Positions 4,513-38,384 of a DNA stretch of 44,945 nucleotides are shown here, in pieces (within the stretch, counting starts at the first letter, position 1; each line of letters starts with the position of its first letter). The notes beneath the pieces were generated by a model. That model was not told the origin of the DNA, did no database searches, and was given only the letters and a program-made list of their open reading frames with translations. The position numbers and the translations under genes were made by a program. Source of the stretch: a virus; the IMG/VR virus record IMGVR_UViG_3300025133_000214, positions 1 through 44,945 of that record; one strand, 5' to 3'.

Positions 4513-5121
4513 ATGCCGGCGCCGTTCATCGAACTCGGAAACAACCACCGCATCGACTTCCAGAGCGGCGAGGCCCTCGACCAAGTCGTCGGCGACAAGG
4601 CGCTGCTTCCGGCGTCGTGCGAAGGAACTCGGGTGCAGATCCTGGCGACCGGGGCGAAGCGTCAGATCGACCTCGTGCCGTCCGGGATCAACTCGGAGTA
4701 CCTGCAACTCGAAGCCGGGAAGTTCCTGGGAGCCAGCATCGCGGACAGCAACGTCGACCCGGCGGGGATGTTCGCCCGGCAGAACACGTCCGGCAAGGAC
4801 CTCTGGATCGCCCGGCTCTGGGTGGTCGGAGGGACCGTGCCGGCCCTGGCGGCGACGGCGGACATCGGGACCAGCGCCAACCCCGTTCCGGTCGGCGGCT
4901 CCAACAACATCTTCGACGGCATCGACCTCCGCAACGGCGGCGTCGTTCGGGACTGGGACTCTGCCCTCGCGGCAGACCACCCGCTGGCAGGTCGACCGAG
5001 CCGGCTGTGGCTCCAGAACGAGTGGCTGTCCATGACGATGGCGACCGGTGACGTGACCGGGTTCGTCGGCAAGCTGATCGTTCAGGTTGTTGCCCTCAAC
5101 GACTTGAAGACGGTTTTCTAG
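4513..5121 (+). CDS. hypothetical beta-rich protein, possible virion component, 202 aa
   Basis: Not recognised. The start follows a GGAG at 4501. Composition (many Gly, Ala, Asn, Val and short hydrophobic strands) resembles phage decoration or fibre-associated proteins. The C-terminal GFVGKLIVQVVAL strand suggests a jelly-roll or sandwich edge. Location near the fibre-like gene gives weak support for a virion role. Confidence 0.5.
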   Translation: MPAPFIELGNNHRIDFQSGEALDQVVGDKALLPASCEGTRVQILATGAKRQIDLVPSGINSEYLQLEAGKFLGASIADSNVDPAGMFARQNTSGKDLWIARLWVVGGTVPALAATADIGTSANPVPVGGSNNIFDGIDLRNGGVVRDWDSALAADHPLAGRPSRLWLQNEWLSMTMATGDVTGFVGKLIVQVVALNDLKTVF

Positions 5122-5147
5122 AAGGATTCTAGGTACTTACAAGACAG

Positions 5148-5176
5148 TTGACAGGCGCCTCAGCCTATGAGACACT
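5148..5176 (+). promoter_or_regulatory. probable promoter for the replication module
   Basis: TTGACA (5148-5153), 17-bp spacer, GACACT (5171-5176), similar to the TACACT -10 elements elsewhere in this genome. A second TTGACA at 5178-5183 has no matching -10 and may be part of a control site. Confidence 0.45.
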
Positions 5177-5202: not shown

Positions 5203-5574
5203 ATGAGCAGCCATTCGCCCCGAGGTTTTCTTCACGATCCGGATGGGAAGCGGTCCTTTGGCCGCGGAATGATCGCCTTCGCGGTCGTCATCATGTGCAT
5301 CGCAGCATACCTCAAGCACGAAGACCTGCTCGAAACCGCAACTCTTCTATTCACGACCTTTATGGGTTGGGAGGCGCGAAAGAGTTCCAATGAGCAGCCA
5401 AAAAACCGAGAAGCCACCGATCAGGTTCAGCGAGATCATGGAGTACATGTCTTGCCCGGAACTGGGACGTCGGTCGAGCGAGAGCAAGAGCCCCGGGAAC
5501 GTTCACACCGTCAACGGCATTACGATGGCGCTGATGGTGGAGACCTACCTGAGCGGTTCCGTCAAGAACCCTGA
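5203..5574 (+). CDS. holin-like membrane protein overlapping the downstream nuclease gene
   Basis: Strong ribosome-binding site (GAGAGGGG) before ATG 5203. Residues about 21-38 (RGMIAFAVVIMCIAAYLK) and 45-56 (ATLLFTTFMGWE) form two hydrophobic segments, the usual layout of small holins. From 5390 to 5574 it shares DNA with the nuclease gene in another frame; that half is Arg/Glu/His-rich and looks unconstrained, so the functional part is probably the first 65 residues. Confidence 0.5.
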   Translation: MSSHSPRGFLHDPDGKRSFGRGMIAFAVVIMCIAAYLKHEDLLETATLLFTTFMGWEARKSSNEQPKNREATDQVQRDHGVHVLPGTGTSVEREQEPRERSHRQRHYDGADGGDLPERFRQEP

Positions 5575-6367
5575 CCCTGAAGCGCACGCGAGCAACTGCC
5601 TTCAGGTAGCGATTACAGAAGAAGAGCAGCGATCCGGCAAGGTCTGGATGACCCCGCAGCAGGCGGGGATCATCATCGACCGCTGCGCGTCCGCCTTCTA
5701 CCACTTCATGCACTGGTGGCCGAAGCAGGGCCTTGAGGTCGTCGCCGTCGAGATCGAGGTGCGGTCGAATCACATCGTCGAACGAGGTGGGCGCCTGGAC
5801 ATGCTGGTCTACAGGCCCGCCGACGGCAAGTTCGGAATCCTCGACGGCAAGGGATACGGCATGGGCGGGAAGTCCGTGAACTCCCAGTCGATCACGCCGG
5901 ACCTCAACAAGGAGAACCAGTGCGGCTGGTACGGAGCAATCCTGGAGGCTGGCTGCACGGCGTTCAAGGGCGTCCCGAACCGAGAGCGCCGCACGCTCAC
6001 CTCCGAGTTGAAGAAGAAGTACGAGCACATCGAACTCAACTTCGAGATCGGCTTCTACGGACAGATCCTCTTCGGCCACTTGATCCCGTTCAAGGTCGGC
6101 GCGAAGAAGGGGACGCAGCGCGGACAGTGCCTGTTCACCGCAGAGTTCCACCAACACCTCGTGACGAACGCCAACCGGCTCGCCGACTGGTACCACGTCA
6201 TGAAGACCCTCGCACCATCCCCCTCCGTTCGCCGGTACGACACCGGTGGGCGATACACCTGTGACCGATGCAGGTTCGCAAAGGACTGTTGGCCCGACGC
6301 GAACACGCCCGCCCCGGTCGCAACCATCCCGGATTTCGTGAACGAGATCCTCAAGGAGCAGCCATGA
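5390..6367 (+). CDS. PD-(D/E)XK exonuclease with Cas4/RecB-type Fe-S cluster
   Basis: 325 residues. C22 in EYMSCPELGR plus the C-terminal triad TCDRCRFAKDC (about 290-302) form the one-plus-three Cys pattern of Fe-S nucleases (Cas4, AddB). The catalytic core is GRLDML (Asp about 134) and ILDGKG (Asp-Gly-Lys about 151-153), followed by a Gln/Tyr motif (NQCGWYG). Expected to be a DNA exonuclease in recombination or end processing. No Cas1/Cas2 is present, so it is not an adaptation module. The Cys at 22 and the conserved RFSEIMEY before it fix the start near 5390 despite overlap with the upstream gene. Confidence 0.75.
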   Translation: MSSQKTEKPPIRFSEIMEYMSCPELGRRSSESKSPGNVHTVNGITMALMVETYLSGSVKNPDPEAHASNCLQVAITEEEQRSGKVWMTPQQAGIIIDRCASAFYHFMHWWPKQGLEVVAVEIEVRSNHIVERGGRLDMLVYRPADGKFGILDGKGYGMGGKSVNSQSITPDLNKENQCGWYGAILEAGCTAFKGVPNRERRTLTSELKKKYEHIELNFEIGFYGQILFGHLIPFKVGAKKGTQRGQCLFTAEFHQHLVTNANRLADWYHVMKTLAPSPSVRRYDTGGRYTCDRCRFAKDCWPDANTPAPVATIPDFVNEILKEQP

Positions 6368-29236: not shown

Positions 29237-30346
29237 CTACCAGGTGTCCACGGAGCCGCCACCGGTGCCGCCGAGGCGACCCTGGACTCCCAGGTTCGAG
29301 TACATCATGACCTGGCTCACGAGGGCGTGAGTCACGTCGGCGAACTGCGTGTCGGAGTACCGCTTCGGTCCGTCGATGGCGACGTCCACCTCGGGGTGGT
29401 GACCGATGTACATGCCCTGGATGTCGCCGGCTTCGAGCGACAGGTTCGGGTCCTCGGTGCCGGAGCCCGCGAGGTTGCCGAACTGGGTCCGCTGCGCCTC
29501 CGCCGTGATCGCGATCCCGCACTCCGCGGGAAAGTCGCTCTCTTCGACGATCGGACAGCCCAGGAGCTGGACCTGATGGGGCACACCGGCGTTCACCGAC
29601 GGGTCGATGCCGCCAGCGCCGCGGAAGGCGAACAGCTGGCTCATTGCGCGGAGCACGTTCAGGTGGATCGCGCTGTTGACGAGGAACACGTTCGGGAAGA
29701 GCGTGCCCTGCTTGCAGTCGGTCAGCAGCTGGAGCATCGTGAAGATGCCTCGGACCAGGTTGCCGCCCAGCGCGTCGCCGAACGCCTGACCGACGGTGTG
29801 CTGCCGGCTCTGGTTCTGCCAGTACGGCGTGGTCGCCTTCGGGATGCGGCCGACGACCGCGGTCTGAGCCGCCGGCGCGGCGTCCTCGATCGCGTTCAGG
29901 ATGCCGAGCGGCTCCTTGCCGCCGGTGCCGTTCAGCGTGTAGAAGGCCAGCCGGTTGCGCAGCGTGATCATCATCTGGCGGAAGCGACGCTCCTCCAGGC
30001 TCATGATCGCGGACTGCCCGCGGTTCTGCCACTTCTTCGTCCACTCGACCGTGAAGGGGATCGCGCCCCAGGCCCAGGTGAACTCAGCCGCGGTGTCGCC
30101 GGGCTGGAAGTCCTTGCCGACCTTGTCGAGGTCGGTGAACCACGTCAGGTCCCCGGTCTCCTGAACGAAGAGGGGCTGGACGATGGTGTGGCCGCCGTCG
30201 ACGGGCTGGACGAAGCCCTTCCGACCGAACCACGAGTTGGTGACGTTGGCGTTGGAAACGAGGTCGACGATCGACCCCATGCGCGACAGCATGGTCGCGA
30301 GCAGAGCCTCGTCCGTACGAGGGTCTCCGCTGAAAAAGACGGGCAT
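29237..30346 (-). CDS. major capsid protein
   Basis: 369 residues. Preceded by scaffold-like and portal genes in canonical order, with AGGAGG upstream of the ATG. The N-terminal region (MGSIVDLVSNANVTNSWFGRKGF) is followed by strand-rich A/P-domain-like segments, and LRNRLAFYTLNGTGGKEPLGILNAI is typical of HK97-fold capsids (the GILN/GLLN motif). The C-terminus is Gly-rich. Confidence 0.75.
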   Translation of the reverse strand: MPVFFSGDPRTDEALLATMLSRMGSIVDLVSNANVTNSWFGRKGFVQPVDGGHTIVQPLFVQETGDLTWFTDLDKVGKDFQPGDTAAEFTWAWGAIPFTVEWTKKWQNRGQSAIMSLEERRFRQMMITLRNRLAFYTLNGTGGKEPLGILNAIEDAAPAAQTAVVGRIPKATTPYWQNQSRQHTVGQAFGDALGGNLVRGIFTMLQLLTDCKQGTLFPNVFLVNSAIHLNVLRAMSQLFAFRGAGGIDPSVNAGVPHQVQLLGCPIVEESDFPAECGIAITAEAQRTQFGNLAGSGTEDPNLSLEAGDIQGMYIGHHPEVDVAIDGPKRYSDTQFADVTHALVSQVMMYSNLGVQGRLGGTGGGSVDTW

Positions 30347-31441: not shown

Positions 31442-33316
31442 TCAGCGTCCTCTGTTCGTCGCGCCAGCACTGGCGCTAACACTATCTTGCACGCCTGCGC
31501 CCGCGCTGTCAACCCCATCCCCGATCCGGGCCGAAGTGCCTGATTCTCCTCCGGTTCCGCCACCTAGGCTGCCCGGGGAGGGCACGCCCGGGCCCGCTTC
31601 CTCTGCATCCCCGCCCGAGAGGACCCGCGAAGGCCACCCGTTGAGCGCCGCGATCAGCTTCGAGACCTCCTTCGGGTCGAAGTGCTGCAAGAGTACCGGG
31701 TTCGCAAACAGCTCCTTCAGCTGCTGAACCATCATCAGTCTGCCCGCCAGCGGGTCGGTTGCCGCCCGATTGACGGCGCTCATCGTGTAGTTCGCGATGC
31801 CGGAGACGGAGTCTCGGTCCATCGTGAAGCTGATCCCGTTGGACGTCACGACGAACTGCGACGACCCGTACTGCATGATCAGCCATGTCGCGATCAGGGC
31901 GACGTCCATGTAGGCGTCGTAGAGCTTGCCCATGATCTCGCTCTGGCGCTTGTCCATGAACGAGGCTTCCTGCACGAAGGCGGTTGCGACCTTGTTCGAC
32001 TCGCCGGAGCCCTGCGACGTCGAGGTCGCCCCGGTGTTCCTGCTGAACGACTGGTCTGCCAACTGGTCCATCTGCACCAGCGACGTCGGGAACTGCCTCG
32101 TGTGCGAGACCGTCGGGTCGAATCGCGGGCCTCCGTACCTGATGATCCGCCGCGTGAAGTTCCCGGAGGCGATCTCCTCCGTGGTCTCGTCGTCGATCAC
32201 GACCGACTCGGGGATCCACATCGCGTCGGACGCCGACCACGCGGCGTGCTCCCGCACGGTCCTGCGCACCCAGGCACGGTCCTTCATGTCGTCCCACGCG
32301 AAGGAGATGTATGACGGCGTGAACCACATGAGCGGGTGCGTGTCGTCTGCGCGGATCACGGTCCAGCGGTTCGGGATCGCCAGCTTGTCCAGCGGCAGGA
32401 TCCACTTCCCGCTGACCATGTCGATCACCCCAAACAGGCCCGACTCTTCCGGCTTGCTCGGGTCCTGGCGCACGTAGACCTCAGCGAGGACGGCCAGCTT
32501 CTGGTTCGTCATGGGCCGGAAGCTGGTCAGCTTCACGTTCCCGAACTTGATCGCCTCGGTGCGCCCTCGCACTTCGACCGTGTCCAAGTGCTCCTTGTAG
32601 CCGTACTGCCGCTCGACCTGGGCCGGCGTCCTGAGCACGAGGTGGGCGATGTAGTACGCTTCCTCCAGGCTCCCGATGTACGGGTCGGTCACGACGTGAC
32701 GCGGATCCACGTACTCCGTCCGCGGCGTGCTCATGTTCGAGAGCGTCGGCATGTCGTTGATCTCGACGCTCTTCATCATCTCCGGGGTCAGCTGAGCGAC
32801 CTGAGCGATGTCGATCGCGGGCATCTGGTCGGGCGGAACCTCGTCGAGCCGGATCGGGCCGCCCTCGTCGGGGGAGCTTCCGTCTCTGGAGGGGTCGGCG
32901 CCCACGTCGGTGACGTCATCGAACGCCCGCTGCCACGCCACCGTGTTCGGCATCGCCGTCTTCAGGAACCCGCACGGCGAGTACACGCAGCAGCGATGAC
33001 CCTGCGAGACCTTCCTGGTCATCTTCATGCGCTTCGCCAGCTGCTCCAGGAACGCCTCCATCCCGAGCGAGTTGTCGAGTCCTGCGCGGTCTGCGTACTC
33101 GATGTCGAGCCACGGAGGCACGCCGAGGAATCCGATCTCCCGCACGAACCGGTCGATGCGGCGCGCGAACGGCGCGATCGCTCGCAGCTCCCCGTCGGTG
33201 ATCTTCTCCTGCGGGTTCAGCAACTTCTGCTGCCTGTCGATCAACGGGTGCACCTCGCTCACGAGGATGTTGAGATCGGACTTGATCACCTCCCACCAGT
33301 TCGTTCCATCGCTCAT
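31442..33316 (-). CDS. portal protein
   Basis: 624 residues, directly downstream of large terminase (ATGA overlap) and upstream of the head genes. Long helical segments near the N-terminus, a Cys-containing region (HRCCVYSPCGF) and a Gln/Asn/Ser-rich middle (QSFSRNTGATSTSQGSGESNKV) match the general portal layout. The C-terminal tail is Gly/Pro-rich and holds a GCGCCAG-CA-CTGGCGC palindrome (31461-31476). Confidence rests mainly on position and size. Confidence 0.65.
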   Translation of the reverse strand: MSDGTNWWEVIKSDLNILVSEVHPLIDRQQKLLNPQEKITDGELRAIAPFARRIDRFVREIGFLGVPPWLDIEYADRAGLDNSLGMEAFLEQLAKRMKMTRKVSQGHRCCVYSPCGFLKTAMPNTVAWQRAFDDVTDVGADPSRDGSSPDEGGPIRLDEVPPDQMPAIDIAQVAQLTPEMMKSVEINDMPTLSNMSTPRTEYVDPRHVVTDPYIGSLEEAYYIAHLVLRTPAQVERQYGYKEHLDTVEVRGRTEAIKFGNVKLTSFRPMTNQKLAVLAEVYVRQDPSKPEESGLFGVIDMVSGKWILPLDKLAIPNRWTVIRADDTHPLMWFTPSYISFAWDDMKDRAWVRRTVREHAAWSASDAMWIPESVVIDDETTEEIASGNFTRRIIRYGGPRFDPTVSHTRQFPTSLVQMDQLADQSFSRNTGATSTSQGSGESNKVATAFVQEASFMDKRQSEIMGKLYDAYMDVALIATWLIMQYGSSQFVVTSNGISFTMDRDSVSGIANYTMSAVNRAATDPLAGRLMMVQQLKELFANPVLLQHFDPKEVSKLIAALNGWPSRVLSGGDAEEAGPGVPSPGSLGGGTGGESGTSARIGDGVDSAGAGVQDSVSASAGATNRGR

Positions 33317-35568
33317 CGCCTGATCTCCATGTGCTTCTTGATGATCTTACGAAGGCCGGGACTCATCGCCCCGAGCATCGTCTCATCTGCTTTGTGTGTT
33401 TCATGTGAAGCCTCAACGACCGCGCCCAGTCCTCTGGAGCGCATCCACACGATGAGTTCCCAGAGGAGGGCGCACATCATGACCATGTCGTCGAAGTAAC
33501 GCTCTCCGGTGCGCTCTGACTTTGTCTTCAGAGCTTCATACTTGCCCTTGTCGTTCTTTACGAACCCCTCAGCGTCCCACTCGAATCGCTCGTCCACGAT
33601 GGTGATCAGGTCGTTGTGGTACGCCTTCCTGAACGCAATCAACAGAGGCTCACGAGAAGCGGGGGTTTGCAGGAACCACACAGCCTTCAGGGTCTCTGTG
33701 TACCCCTTCGTGCGGCGCTCCTGCTCGTAGTCGTGACCGTGCCCGTAGTGCTCCCACGCTTTCAGCGCGACCTTCCCGGGGCCGTTCAGCTCTCCGATCA
33801 CGTATGTGTCCGCGTGCCCGTAGAACGACACCGCTTTCGCGATCTCGTCCGCGCTAATCTCCGGGTCGATCCGCGTCCGACGCACAGCGCAGACGAGGCC
33901 GTCGTTCACTCGCGCTACGCCGATCGGCGAGTAGTCGCTGTCGTTCAGCCCGTCCGCAAAGTCGCCGGCGACCGCGTAGTACGCCTTCTCACCAGGAGGG
34001 AGTGGGGGCGGGTCCCACATATACCAGCCGCCGCGGACAGTGTCGCGGAACCCCACACTGTTCCGTACGGTCTGGACCTGCGCTCCGAACCCTGTCGTGG
34101 TCCACTCGAACTCACCGATGCGGTCCGCCGCCCTGCTCGCCTGGAGCCTCATGAAGAACCCACCAGAGACCAGTCCGAGCGATTCTTCGTACGTGTACGG
34201 GTACTCGGTGTGAACGAGCAGCAACTCGTCCAGCTCTTCGATCTTCCGCCGCCTGAACCCTACCTGCTCTGGTGTGAGCCTAAGTTTGCGAGCGTAGTCC
34301 TTTTCGCAGATCGGGTGCGGCTCGCCGTCGTCGCCGATCTCAAAGTCTGCAAACCTCCCGGCCGGGTTCGTTTCCTGCCTAGGTCCTGGTACAGGGTCGC
34401 CAACGTTACTCGCAAGCGACGCCGCTCCGAAGAACTGGAAGTCAACGTACGAGAGGACGGCGATGCGGTTCAGCTCGTGTGCCTGCTCGTCGTTCGTTCC
34501 CTCGTGCGCAATTACGTTGCGGGTCGACGGGTACACCGCGGGCAGGATCGCCTGATTGATGTTCGACCAGACCTCCCCGCCTCCAACCCGCTCGTACTTC
34601 CCCGCCTCTGAGATGATGACCAGGTTGTACCCTGTGGCGCCGACCTTCTGCACGCCGCCGCTCTTGATGTCCGCGTGCCTGATCTCCCAGGCCGAGCCGT
34701 TCGCGAGCGCGAGCTTCCCCTCGGTGTAATTCTCCTGGATGAGCGGTGGGTACAGGTGCGGCCACTTCGCGTTGAGTTCCCGCAGGTCAGCGGCGATGTC
34801 TCTGAGGTGGTCCTTCGCGTCGTCCTTCATCGGCAGGTGGAGCAGTGTCGCCCAGACGTCGATGTTCGCCCCGCAGAGCACGCTGAACTTCTTCCAGAAC
34901 GTCGTGCTTCCGACCTTACGCGGCTTCGTGCGAGTGATCCAGTGCTTGTCCGTGGTCAGGCGCGGCTTGTGTACAACCTTCCCTCTGCGCACCCGTAGCG
35001 TGGTCTCTGGCACATGCGGGTCGTCGTTGGCCCACCTCTCCAAAAAGGGGCCGTAGCACTGGCGCTGGTAGCGGGAGCGGGGGTCTATCCCATCGAGGTC
35101 GAAGGGGATGATGTCCTTCTTGATCAGGCCCTGGGCATCTTCCGAGGTCAGCTGCGAGTTCACCGTCAGGAACGTCCGCATCCACTCCTTCGGCTTCTTG
35201 AGCGCCATCTTCCTGGCCTCGTCGCGCGTACCTCTGCGGGTCCCCTTCTCTGTGCCATTCTCGTTGTGGAGGTCGTCTTGAAGCTCGACCTCATCGCGCG
35301 ATGCTGTGATCACGTCCAGGGAGGGGAGCGATGCGTCAGGCTTTGACTCGATTACTGAGTCGAGGACCTTGTGCGCTCTGGTTCCAGCCATGACCACTGC
35401 GAACGCGGCCTGTACGTACCAGTGGTTCGCGGGCAACATCTTCCGCAGAAGCTCTGTGCTGGAGCGGATCTTGTCGTCGAGCTGCTCTCGGTCCGCGTTT
35501 GTGCAGTCGAGAGCAGAGCGGCGAGAGACAGCGGCGGCGAGGTCTCGCAGGGACCAGGAGTCTACCAT
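33313..35568 (-). CDS. terL: terminase large subunit
   Basis: 751 residues. ATPase motifs: Walker A-like TKPRKVGSTTFW (about 215-226), Walker B-like NLVIISEAGKYE (about 310-321, SEA in place of DEA). Nuclease motifs: AVAGDFADGLNDSDYS (about 530), VIGELNGPG (about 585), DDMVMMCALL (about 695). An unusual about 130-residue N-terminal extension precedes the ATPase. It drives headful or site-specific packaging through the portal. Confidence 0.8.
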   Translation of the reverse strand: MVDSWSLRDLAAAVSRRSALDCTNADREQLDDKIRSSTELLRKMLPANHWYVQAAFAVVMAGTRAHKVLDSVIESKPDASLPSLDVITASRDEVELQDDLHNENGTEKGTRRGTRDEARKMALKKPKEWMRTFLTVNSQLTSEDAQGLIKKDIIPFDLDGIDPRSRYQRQCYGPFLERWANDDPHVPETTLRVRRGKVVHKPRLTTDKHWITRTKPRKVGSTTFWKKFSVLCGANIDVWATLLHLPMKDDAKDHLRDIAADLRELNAKWPHLYPPLIQENYTEGKLALANGSAWEIRHADIKSGGVQKVGATGYNLVIISEAGKYERVGGGEVWSNINQAILPAVYPSTRNVIAHEGTNDEQAHELNRIAVLSYVDFQFFGAASLASNVGDPVPGPRQETNPAGRFADFEIGDDGEPHPICEKDYARKLRLTPEQVGFRRRKIEELDELLLVHTEYPYTYEESLGLVSGGFFMRLQASRAADRIGEFEWTTTGFGAQVQTVRNSVGFRDTVRGGWYMWDPPPLPPGEKAYYAVAGDFADGLNDSDYSPIGVARVNDGLVCAVRRTRIDPEISADEIAKAVSFYGHADTYVIGELNGPGKVALKAWEHYGHGHDYEQERRTKGYTETLKAVWFLQTPASREPLLIAFRKAYHNDLITIVDERFEWDAEGFVKNDKGKYEALKTKSERTGERYFDDMVMMCALLWELIVWMRSRGLGAVVEASHETHKADETMLGAMSPGLRKIIKKHMEIRR

Positions 35569-36256: not shown

Positions 36257-36286
36257 TTGACAGGCTCAATCCGTTCGTCGTAGTCT
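36257..36286 (+). promoter_or_regulatory. rightward promoter overlapped by long dyad
   Basis: TTGACA (36257-36262), 18-bp spacer, TAGTCT (36281-36286); expected start about 36293. The -10 lies inside the perfect dyad at 36270-36304. Confidence 0.5.
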
Positions 36287-36304
36287 TTGACTACGACGAA
36301 CGGA
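36270..36304. repeat. perfect 16-bp inverted repeat with 3-nt spacer
   Basis: Arms 36270-36285 and 36289-36304 are exact reverse complements around TTT. It covers the -10 and start site of the promoter above, so a DNA operator is more likely than an RNA hairpin; read-through transcripts would form a strong hairpin. Confidence 0.8.
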
Positions 36305-36312
36305 GCGCAGTG

Positions 36313-36480
36313 ATGCAAGATCGATACCAAATCTTTCACGACAAGACCCGAAACGCATGGTACGGGGTCGATCTGGAGCGGCGGGAACGCTTGACGAAGG
36401 CCCGACTCAGCGGCCAAACGCGCTGCACCCCCTACTGCCGAACCAGAGAAGAAGTTCAGGAACGCTTGACTCGCAAATAA
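36313..36480 (+). CDS. hypothetical protein, 55 aa
   Basis: ATG 36313 with GGAG 7 nt upstream. The product is basic (MQDRYQIFHDKTRNAWYGVD, then LERRERLTKARLSG) and carries TRCTPYC. Probably nucleic-acid binding; no family recognised. First gene right of the control region and therefore an early-gene or regulator candidate. Confidence 0.5.
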   Translation: MQDRYQIFHDKTRNAWYGVDLERRERLTKARLSGQTRCTPYCRTREEVQERLTRK

Positions 36481-36493
36481 ACTCCTGTAAGCT
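36466..36493 (+). promoter_or_regulatory. promoter of the large structured RNA
   Basis: TTGACT (36466-36471), 16-bp spacer, TAAGCT (36488-36493); start near 36500. The dyad TCAAC-A-GTTGA (36496-36506) sits on the start site. Confidence 0.5.
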
Positions 36494-36499
36494 AGTCAA

Positions 36500-37140
36500 C
36501 AGTTGAGGTTCATTGATAATCGAATACGGTTGAGGGGCGCCAAAACGGCGCCAGCCCAGGAACCACGCGGACTAATGATCCGTAGTATTGCCAGCGCATT
36601 GAGCGCTCACGGTTAACGCTACGGGTCAGTCCGCGACGGAGAAAGCATCCACGCGCTTGACGGCGCCTCTCAACCGTGCGATATTCATGAGCACAACAGG
36701 GCAAGTACGGTGTGGATTCACCCGAAAAACGCTAAGTAGTTCATTGAAATCCTGCGCGACCCTACGTGCTTTACGCACGGCTTACGAGCTAAGAGGGTCG
36801 GCTACATATTGAAGATGGTACGCCCGGACCGAAACGCGGGCTGAACGCAAGGCGCGTCAATCATGGTGACCGTTGTCAAGGCAGGCACTTTTGATTTTCG
36901 CACCGAAACAAGCGTCACTGTCAAGGACCGCAGCGTTTTGAATCATGAACTAGGCTGCTCCTTTCGCTAATCAATTGCCCCGCATGGCGGTGTGTACCCT
37001 GGTAGCGTTATAAGAGGGCCCCTACTTCACCAGACGTACTGAACGGCGCGACATACGTGGAACGGTTAGCCCACGGGTGAATCGATGGCCGGACGGTCAT
37101 CATGATTGACGCGCCTTGCAAGTTGATTGTGTCACTACTG
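36500..37140 (+). ncRNA. candidate large structured noncoding RNA
   Basis: A gene-free stretch of about 640 nt with nested complementary segments. Domain 1: 36526-36541 with 36662-36677 (16 bp), enclosing 36566-36573/36628-36635 (8 bp), 36577-36585/36619-36627 (9 bp) and 36593-36597/36603-36607. Domain 2: 36757-36763/36794-36800 closing hairpins 36765-36779 and 36781-36793. Hairpin 36822-36826/36837-36841. Domain 3: 36847-36874 with 37092-37119 (28 bp), enclosing 36930-36934/36954-36958, 36965-36969/37003-37007 and 37026-37031/37076-37081. The non-Watson-Crick pairs in the long stems are G-U on this strand. Size and complexity recall GOLLD and ROOL RNAs, but I cannot assign a family. The 3' end is uncertain. 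Confidence 0.6.
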
Positions 37141-37141
37141 C

Positions 37142-37156
37142 GGACCATCACGGTCC
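37142..37156 (+). promoter_or_regulatory. leader hairpin before the 59-aa gene
   Basis: GGACC-atcac-GGTCC, 5 bp, ends 4 nt before the GGAGG Shine-Dalgarno (37160-37164). Confidence 0.4.
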
Positions 37157-37170
37157 AATGGAGGTGACAT

Positions 37171-37350
37171 ATGGACGAACTCGAACTCCTGAGCAGGATC
37201 ACGGACCCGCGCAAGCGCCCCCCCGTGGACGTGAGCGTGCGTGAGCTTGTCACGGACGAGTATGGTGACGTTATCTGTGCGCTCTCGCACGGAATCGTCA
37301 ACGAAGTCGAATACCGCGAGCGCAACGCCACGATCGTGAAGCGCTACTAG
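37171..37350 (+). CDS. hypothetical protein, 59 aa
   Basis: ATG 37171 with GGAGG 6 nt upstream. Product starts MDELELLSRITDPRKRPPVD and is mixed-charge and soluble. Not recognised. It follows the structured RNA region and may share its transcript. Confidence 0.6.
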   Translation: MDELELLSRITDPRKRPPVDVSVRELVTDEYGDVICALSHGIVNEVEYRERNATIVKRY

Positions 37351-37354
37351 AGAC

Positions 37355-37387
37355 CTACTACCGCAGGGAGGACCTTGCGGGCAGTAG
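37355..37387 (+). promoter_or_regulatory. intergenic stem-loop
   Basis: CTACT (37355-37359) with AGTAG (37383-37387), CCGCA with TGCGG (37376-37380), then GG/CC; small bulges. No T-tract. Possibly an mRNA processing or attenuation structure between two genes. Confidence 0.4.
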
Positions 37388-37420
37388 TGACACAATCGGC
37401 ACACTACCCAGGAGGCAGCC

Positions 37421-37885
37421 ATGAGCAATAAGCGTCAGCAGCGTAAGCGTCGGAACCGGCGCAAGGCAAAGCAACGTTCGAAGCGCGGCATGGAGATCTC
37501 GCACGAAGAGGTAGTGCCGTTGCCGGTGCCGTCGGCGCCGATGCCCATCCGAACGTCCGCTGAGCGGCTGTTCAAGATGTGCCAGACCCGACCGCAGCGC
37601 TTCTCGAAGACTCGGAACCTGCAGATCATGAGCGGGAACCGGGAGTGGCGCGAAGATGAGCAGCGGTACGTCGGCAAGAATGCACACAAGCGCAGCCGCA
37701 TCACGGCGCGTGAGTGCCACTACGACGGCGTGACCACGGAATTCCGACGGGACCGGCGCGAACAGACGCCTTACTCGCGGGATATCTACGGACCACGTGA
37801 GCGCAAGGTGACACACGGCGAATGCACGCCGGTCGGCAGCAACGAACACTTCTTCGACCATGTAGACTTCCACGTCGCAACGTGA
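37421..37885 (+). CDS. hypothetical basic protein, 154 aa
   Basis: ATG 37421 with AGGAGG upstream. The first 23 residues are almost all Lys/Arg/Gln (MSNKRQQRKRRNRRKAKQR), like RNA-binding arginine-rich peptides; the C-terminal half has His and acidic residues (GSNEHFFDHVDFHVAT). It may bind RNA, possibly a phage transcript; this is inferred from charge only. Confidence 0.55.
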   Translation: MSNKRQQRKRRNRRKAKQRSKRGMEISHEEVVPLPVPSAPMPIRTSAERLFKMCQTRPQRFSKTRNLQIMSGNREWREDEQRYVGKNAHKRSRITARECHYDGVTTEFRRDRREQTPYSRDIYGPRERKVTHGECTPVGSNEHFFDHVDFHVAT

Positions 37886-37890
37886 CATGC

Positions 37891-37920
37891 GACGGGGGGA
37901 CCGTAAAAAGTCCCTCCGTC
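37891..37920 (+). terminator. 11-bp hairpin terminator-like element
   Basis: GACGGGGGGAC (37891-37901) pairs with GTCCCTCCGTC (37910-37920) with one G-U. No U-tract, as is common in high-GC phages. It is followed by a second hairpin at 37950-37971 (CGCT-a-GGC with GCC-AGCG). Confidence 0.55.
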
Positions 37921-38047
37921 ATTGCATGAAACCGCTAAACCCCTGGTATCGCTAGGCTTTTCAGGCCAGCGCGAAGTGTGCAATGTGGGAAAACCTAATG
38001 ATTCCGGCACAGTCAGCTAACCGTGTGAACTTTCTAATGGAGAAGTG

Positions 38048-38326: not shown

Positions 38327-38339
38327 TGAATAAGGGCCA

Positions 38340-38384
38340 TGTACACTGGTTTGACCCGGTGTGCATCCCCGTGTACACTGGTTT
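38340..38384 (+). promoter_or_regulatory. promoter flanked by two 13-bp operator repeats
   Basis: TTGACC (38351-38356), 17-bp spacer, TACACT (38374-38379). TGTACACTGGTTT occurs at 38340-38352 and 38372-38384, 32 bp apart (about three helical turns), covering the -35 edge and the -10. A repressor dimer could bind both. Confidence 0.65.

Follow-up and report, generated by a model that had tools for sequence, protein, structure and literature searches.

A structured region between divergent gene blocks

What kind of element fills positions 36500-37140, a region without a supported gene that lies between the divergent gene blocks of the 44,945-base virus record IMGVR_UViG_3300025133_000214? An earlier note, made from the letters alone, had read this region as a highly structured RNA made from the + strand and had likened it to the giant phage RNAs GOLLD and ROOL. 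Here, the window is the whole 44,945-nt record, in whose leftward block three genes flank the region on one side:

29237-30346, leftward block: capsid-like gene
31442-33316, leftward block: portal-like gene
33313-35568, leftward block: terminase-like gene

The rightward genes include those for a primase/helicase, a methyltransferase and a SNF2-type helicase. No tRNA gene is found in the whole 44,945 nt, and neither the region nor the window resembles the DNA of known phages or plasmids. Relatives were sought in IMG/VR with terminase, portal, helicase, capsid and 154-aa protein (see below) queries plus one exact DNA pattern, and in GTDB genomes with terminase and capsid queries, which together returned two records. 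IMGVR_UViG_3300008050_005326 is an identical fragment that stops at about window position 36356, before the structured region. The sole usable relative is therefore IMGVR_UViG_3300009481_000001 (46.7 kb), whose terminase is 64% and whose capsid is 76% identical; L007 is used as its label and coordinate system. Additionally, a 50-kb phage, L013, served as control genome for helix scans.

Two long duplexes in direct tandem behind a stable hairpin

Helices were scanned on the + strand for spans of up to 450 nt and loops of about 100 nt or longer, with G-U pairs allowed. In the window, the longest helices of this geometry are stem A (28 bp), stem B (20 bp) and the core stem of hairpin I (17 bp), arranged as follows:

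36314-36480: plausible 55-aa ORF, just upstream of the structured region
36466-36493, + strand: promoter-like TTGACT-16-TAAGCT, a consensus-like pattern match only; candidate start of the leader transcript
36502-36698, + strand: domain I, a long imperfect hairpin with a 17-bp core stem (36525-36541/36662-36678)
36847-36874, + strand: 5′ arm of stem A, 28 bp, exceeding every other + helix of this geometry in the window
36875-37091, + strand: interior of stem A, 217 nt, non-coding, with a fold no more stable than chance
37092-37119, + strand: 3′ arm of stem A, pairing with 36847-36874
37122-37141, + strand: 5′ arm of stem B, 20 bp, starting 2 nt after stem A
37171-37350, + strand: 59-aa ORF with a Shine-Dalgarno-like GGAGG, enclosed by stem B
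37381-37400, + strand: 3′ arm of stem B, pairing with 37122-37141
37421-37885, + strand: gene of a 154-aa basic protein, starting 20 nt after stem B and conserved in L007

The stems named by the earlier note, including those of 16 bp (36526-36541/36662-36677) and 28 bp (36847-36874/37092-37119), the hairpins around 36757-36800 and the listed G-U pairs of the long stems were all recovered at their places. Its extent of 36500-37140 is indeed structured, but the structure continues past 37140, and stem B (37122-37400) had been missed. The promoter that it had placed with its end at 36493 is present as a consensus-like match, TTGACT-16-TAAGCT. No intrinsic terminator was found near the leader.

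When the whole window was shuffled 200 times with dinucleotides preserved, the longest helix meeting these criteria had 21 bp, and helix counts in the shuffles drop about 0.4-fold per bp; extrapolation from these shuffles puts a 28-bp helix at about 1e-5 occurrences per genome. By length, stem B would not stand out, since about 3 of 100 shuffled genomes have a helix of at least 20 bp; what is rare is its position 2 nt behind stem A. Elsewhere, neither strand of the window genome, L007 or L013 carries a helix of this geometry longer than 20 bp. In the ensemble of the full leader, the mean pair probability is 0.98-0.99 for stem A, 0.99 for stem B and 0.98 for the core stem of domain I.

Folding of 36500-37145 gives a z-score of -6.3 on the + strand and -4.3 on the - strand (20 shuffles each). 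Specifically, hairpin I (36514-36691) reaches -7.4, with none of 200 shuffles equally stable, whereas the linker 36692-36846 (z -0.5; -0.1 in L007) and the interior of stem A (+1.26; +1.0 in L007) lie near their shuffles (200 each), so the overall value stems from the long stems and hairpin I rather than from an ornate interior. The interior of stem B gives -1.4 in the window and -0.6 in L007 (200 shuffles).

Just upstream of the 55-aa ORF, the window additionally carries an inverted repeat whose 16-bp arms pair perfectly across a 3-nt loop (36270-36304, TCCGTTCGTCGTAGTC), which lacks a T-run and is perhaps an operator.

The tandem recurs in the relative

A syntenic tandem is found in L007, with the same A-B order upstream of the homologue of the 154-aa gene:

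L007 5984-6012/6211-6239, + strand: stem A, 29 bp
L007 6241-6268/6541-6568, + strand: stem B, 28 bp, after a 1-nt spacer from stem A
L007 6284-6367 and 6355-6537: small ORFs of 27 aa and 60 aa, enclosed by stem B

Stems A (29 bp) and B (28 bp) are also the longest + helices of this geometry in L007. In a like place upstream, at 5784-5910, L007 forms a stable hairpin (z -3.4) without detectable sequence similarity to domain I. Fold-and-align of the two hairpins, performed with a home-made procedure on two sequences, scores above shuffles (z 3.4, reached by 0 of 200), mainly because both hairpins are strong, and the same comparison of the linkers does not rise above shuffles.

In both phages, stem B closely flanks an ORF and ends shortly before the ATG of the 154-aa gene, at 20 nt in the window and 28 nt in L007. 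The enclosed ORFs of 59 aa and 60 aa occupy the same place and share no convincing similarity, and no sequence similarity is detectable between the B arms or between the B interiors of the two phages. As the B arms and domain I are unalike in sequence, yet their duplexes persist, selection appears to act on the duplex and not on the sequence.

The 27-aa ORF of L007 (6284-6367, MYQIFSAHDYLAISAAMSAIALFGWLL) is hydrophobic, has a ribosome-binding-like site and overlaps the 60-aa ORF inside stem B. Read by eye, it raised the idea of a panhandle that encloses a small hydrophobic toxin, a candidate that was set aside as the window has no such ORF. Small ORFs of 35 aa (window) and 32 aa (L007), seen by eye within stem A, were rejected as well, having no ribosome-binding sites and being unlike each other.

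Elsewhere in L007, a 26-bp helix at 5025-5147, with a loop shorter than the geometry set, lies in TGTG/CACA-rich repeats. The divergent intergenic stretches 4960-5160 and 5475-5739 hold long inverted repeats of this kind together with repeated CGACAT-ATGTCG and ACTGTACATATGTACAGT palindromes, and these repeats and palindromes are probable operators.

No elaborate fold is detected in common between the interiors

The earlier note raised GOLLD, ROOL or a new class as possible identities, and the corresponding rival reading is a giant non-coding RNA with an ornate fold, perhaps acting as a multimer. GOLLD and ROOL are described as phage or prophage RNAs that often lie near tRNA islands and whose internal stems are supported by covariation (PMC12286853). 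The present region resembles GOLLD as a large phage-encoded non-coding RNA with extensive predicted pairing, and ROOL, which forms RNA multimers, in its similar length and phage setting; its long closing stem and the conservation of a non-coding stretch add to the likeness. However, an Rfam covariance-model search of the window found nothing at gathering level and nothing with the cut-off relaxed to E=5. L007 gave no meaningful match either: its hits are mostly miRNA models on the low-complexity, TGTG/CACA-rich inverted repeats of 4960-5160, and the small remainder are chance matches that score far below gathering. Unlike GOLLD, the region has no tRNA neighbourhood, the conserved 3′ domain was not found in it, and its sequence is unconserved even between two related phages. 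Unlike ROOL, it shows no conserved internal structure, and the structure continues around an ORF, the one enclosed by stem B.

The interiors of stem A are weakly alike over their full length, a marginal local similarity that 10 of 200 shuffles equal, and no common fold emerges from their simultaneous folding and alignment (z 0.66, 39 of 150 shuffles as good), a comparison of two sequences and hence a weak test, compatible with a conserved core within A. Neither interior exceeds its shuffles in stability, although minimum-free-energy z-scores of this type can overlook RNAs that tertiary contacts stabilise. Taken together, what both phages conserve is a tandem of long closing duplexes and not an elaborate fold, which is a different kind from GOLLD and ROOL, and we consider an ornate giant RNA improbable.

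A basic protein gene follows the leader

The 154-aa protein (pI 10.7) is 37% identical to its L007 homologue and begins arginine-rich in both phages, with 13 (window) and 11 (L007) K/R in the first 25 residues. In lambda, the pL-N leader carries an RNase III-sensitive stem before the gene of an arginine-rich RNA-binding protein. The present locus shares with it a putative early leader and a stem ahead of a gene whose protein starts arginine-rich. In a rival reading of this kind, the leader RNA would be read by the adjacent 154-aa protein for antitermination or autoregulation, with the stems as processing or binding sites. A strongly conserved hairpin element of about 90 nt just after the gene would suit this reading. 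On the other hand, the 154-aa protein has no significant family match, basic N-termini are common, and there is no sequence relation to the lambda leader. The arginine-rich start leaves room for a hypothetical N-like RNA-binding role, and we rank this reading below the ornate RNA in probability.

The hairpin element itself (window 37908-38005, L007 7105-7202) is non-coding, and its DNA conservation lies far above the surroundings (local alignment z 11.5). Its common letters are ATTGC.TGAAA.CGCTAAACCC.TG.TATCG and GGAAAACC.AATGATT, with GATTGC/GCAATC-like closing arms; it has no Rfam match, is absent from known phages and is possibly a regulatory RNA, a nut-like site or part of an origin. In a gene-poor stretch of each phage (window 37912-38812, L007 7109-7690), repeated CCCTCCNTGATTGC boxes occur on both strands, numbering 5 in the window and 6 in L007 at up to 2 mismatches against whole-source shuffle means of 1.25 and 0.41, and they could be iterons or operators. 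At window 38337-38384, two direct copies of GTACACTGGTTT stand 32 nt apart beside a promoter-like TTGACC-17-TACACT.

Pairing change and strand bias point to RNA

Stem A of the window and of L007 aligns without gaps around a common TCAAT-ATG core; the alignment holds two sequences only, with arms joined by hand and no gaps inserted by the aligner (a MAFFT alignment of the leaders was unusable, the sequences being saturated). In it, 15 of the 28 pairs are changed on both sides and 0 are broken, leaving 100% paired, whereas slid controls give 1-3 doubly changed pairs and 22-54% pairing. As only two genomes carry the structure, this covariation rests on one sequence pair.

In line with an RNA-level role, the mismatches favour one strand. 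Arms found without G-U preference contain five mismatches (one each in I, A and L007 B, two in L007 A), and 5/5 are G-U on the + strand and hence A-C on the other, with a chance of 1/32 if both were equally likely. With + strand G-U allowed, the stems measure 28 and 20 bp in the window and 29 and 28 bp in L007; read as the - strand they are shorter and the duplexes weaker, most so for stem A of L007 (-48.3 kcal/mol on +, -32.7 kcal/mol on -). No translated similarity between the window and L007, in any frame at the syntenic place, covers the region, so no conserved protein explains it. The claim of the earlier note that a structured RNA is made from the + strand is supported by the G-U-only mismatches, the compensatory change in stem A and the lack of a conserved protein frame.

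Could the arms instead be inverted repeats of DNA, marking an invertible or mobile segment or forming cruciform signals for replication or packaging? Long near-perfect inverted repeats around segments of about 220 nt do recall the terminal inverted repeats of small elements, and gene conversion can yield paired change, such that recombination-homogenised repeats would also show the pattern of stem A. However, none of the five mismatches is read as A-C or a transversion on the + strand, in contrast to the repeat 38427/38794 with its A-A mismatch; stem A has no flanking direct duplication; and the tandem with a 1-2-nt spacer recurs in a distant phage, where it precedes the homologous gene although the B arms are unrelated. 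DNA-level repeats are, in our estimate, less probable still than the N-like reading. Least probable of all is an unprocessed duplex-rich decoy or shield that would guard the early mRNA against exonucleases or engage the host's double-stranded-RNA factors or its RNA-sensing defences, a reading which selection seemingly on duplex rather than sequence and the triggering of a cGAS-like defence by structured phage RNA in staphylococci (PMC10686824) would favour, but which leaves the close border of stem B with its ORF and the 1-2-nt A-B tandem unexplained.

A proposed leader with tandem processing stalks

The observed stems, their conserved place and size, the strand bias of the mismatches and the compensatory change in stem A lead us to propose, tentatively and at somewhat less than an even chance, that the region serves the rightward early operon as its 5′ leader, in which hairpin I is followed by tandem A and B domains whose duplexes serve as RNase III-type processing stalks. 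Precursors of rRNA are processed by RNase III at long stems around 16S and 23S. The present stems share with these, and with T7 R1.1-type sites, long near-perfect and sequence-tolerant duplexes of at least about two helical turns that flank RNA segments of a polycistronic transcript. Specifically, both phages have near-perfect duplexes of at least about 20 bp, with 28 and 29 bp for A, 20 and 28 bp for B and pair probabilities of 0.98 or more, and pairing is kept despite sequence change in stem A (15/28) and in the B arms, as judged from two genomes only. For T7, RNase III cutting of pre-mRNA at R1.1 matures and protects the mRNAs (PMC8708148). What differs here is that one stem directly follows the other within the putative leader of a phage early operon and that cleavage is predicted; moreover, stem A surrounds a non-coding segment and stem B a small cistron, in contrast to the local hairpins of T7 and to the rRNA stalks, which surround rRNA.

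That the region is transcribed, that RNase III cuts it and what the processing is for are all inferred, and the sequence of events would run as follows. The leader RNA would fold into hairpin I and then domains A and B, which lie 1-2 nt apart and are both closed by duplexes of 20-29 bp. An RNase III-type cut in stem A would separate the leader and release a non-coding piece of about 220 nt with paired ends, and a cut in stem B would release the small cistron with paired ends and let the mRNA of the 154-aa protein begin anew about 30-40 nt ahead of its start codon. Because stem B ends 20-28 nt before this codon, such a cut would leave the message a short free leader. Since place and size of the duplexes are kept while their letters change, a double-strand-specific enzyme may be the selecting agent.

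Beyond these processing stalks, the tandem may form a new RNA device, in which panhandles conserved in pairing and not in sequence release a stable trans-acting RNA of about 220 nt and an end-paired small mRNA; host RNA enzymes or RNA-sensing defence, for example, would be targets of such a panhandle RNA. We regard this as unlikely, if somewhat ahead of the ornate RNA.

A duplex conserved without conservation of its sequence is seldom so clear outside rRNA precursors. The long stems are probably cutting or protecting points for early mRNA and, if they are stalks, an uncultured phage lineage would use a layout like that of rRNA operons to divide its early mRNA into separate messages and a non-coding piece. 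Elements of this type escape sequence-profile libraries such as Rfam, yet they are searchable by their geometry of two tandem long stems 1-2 nt apart.
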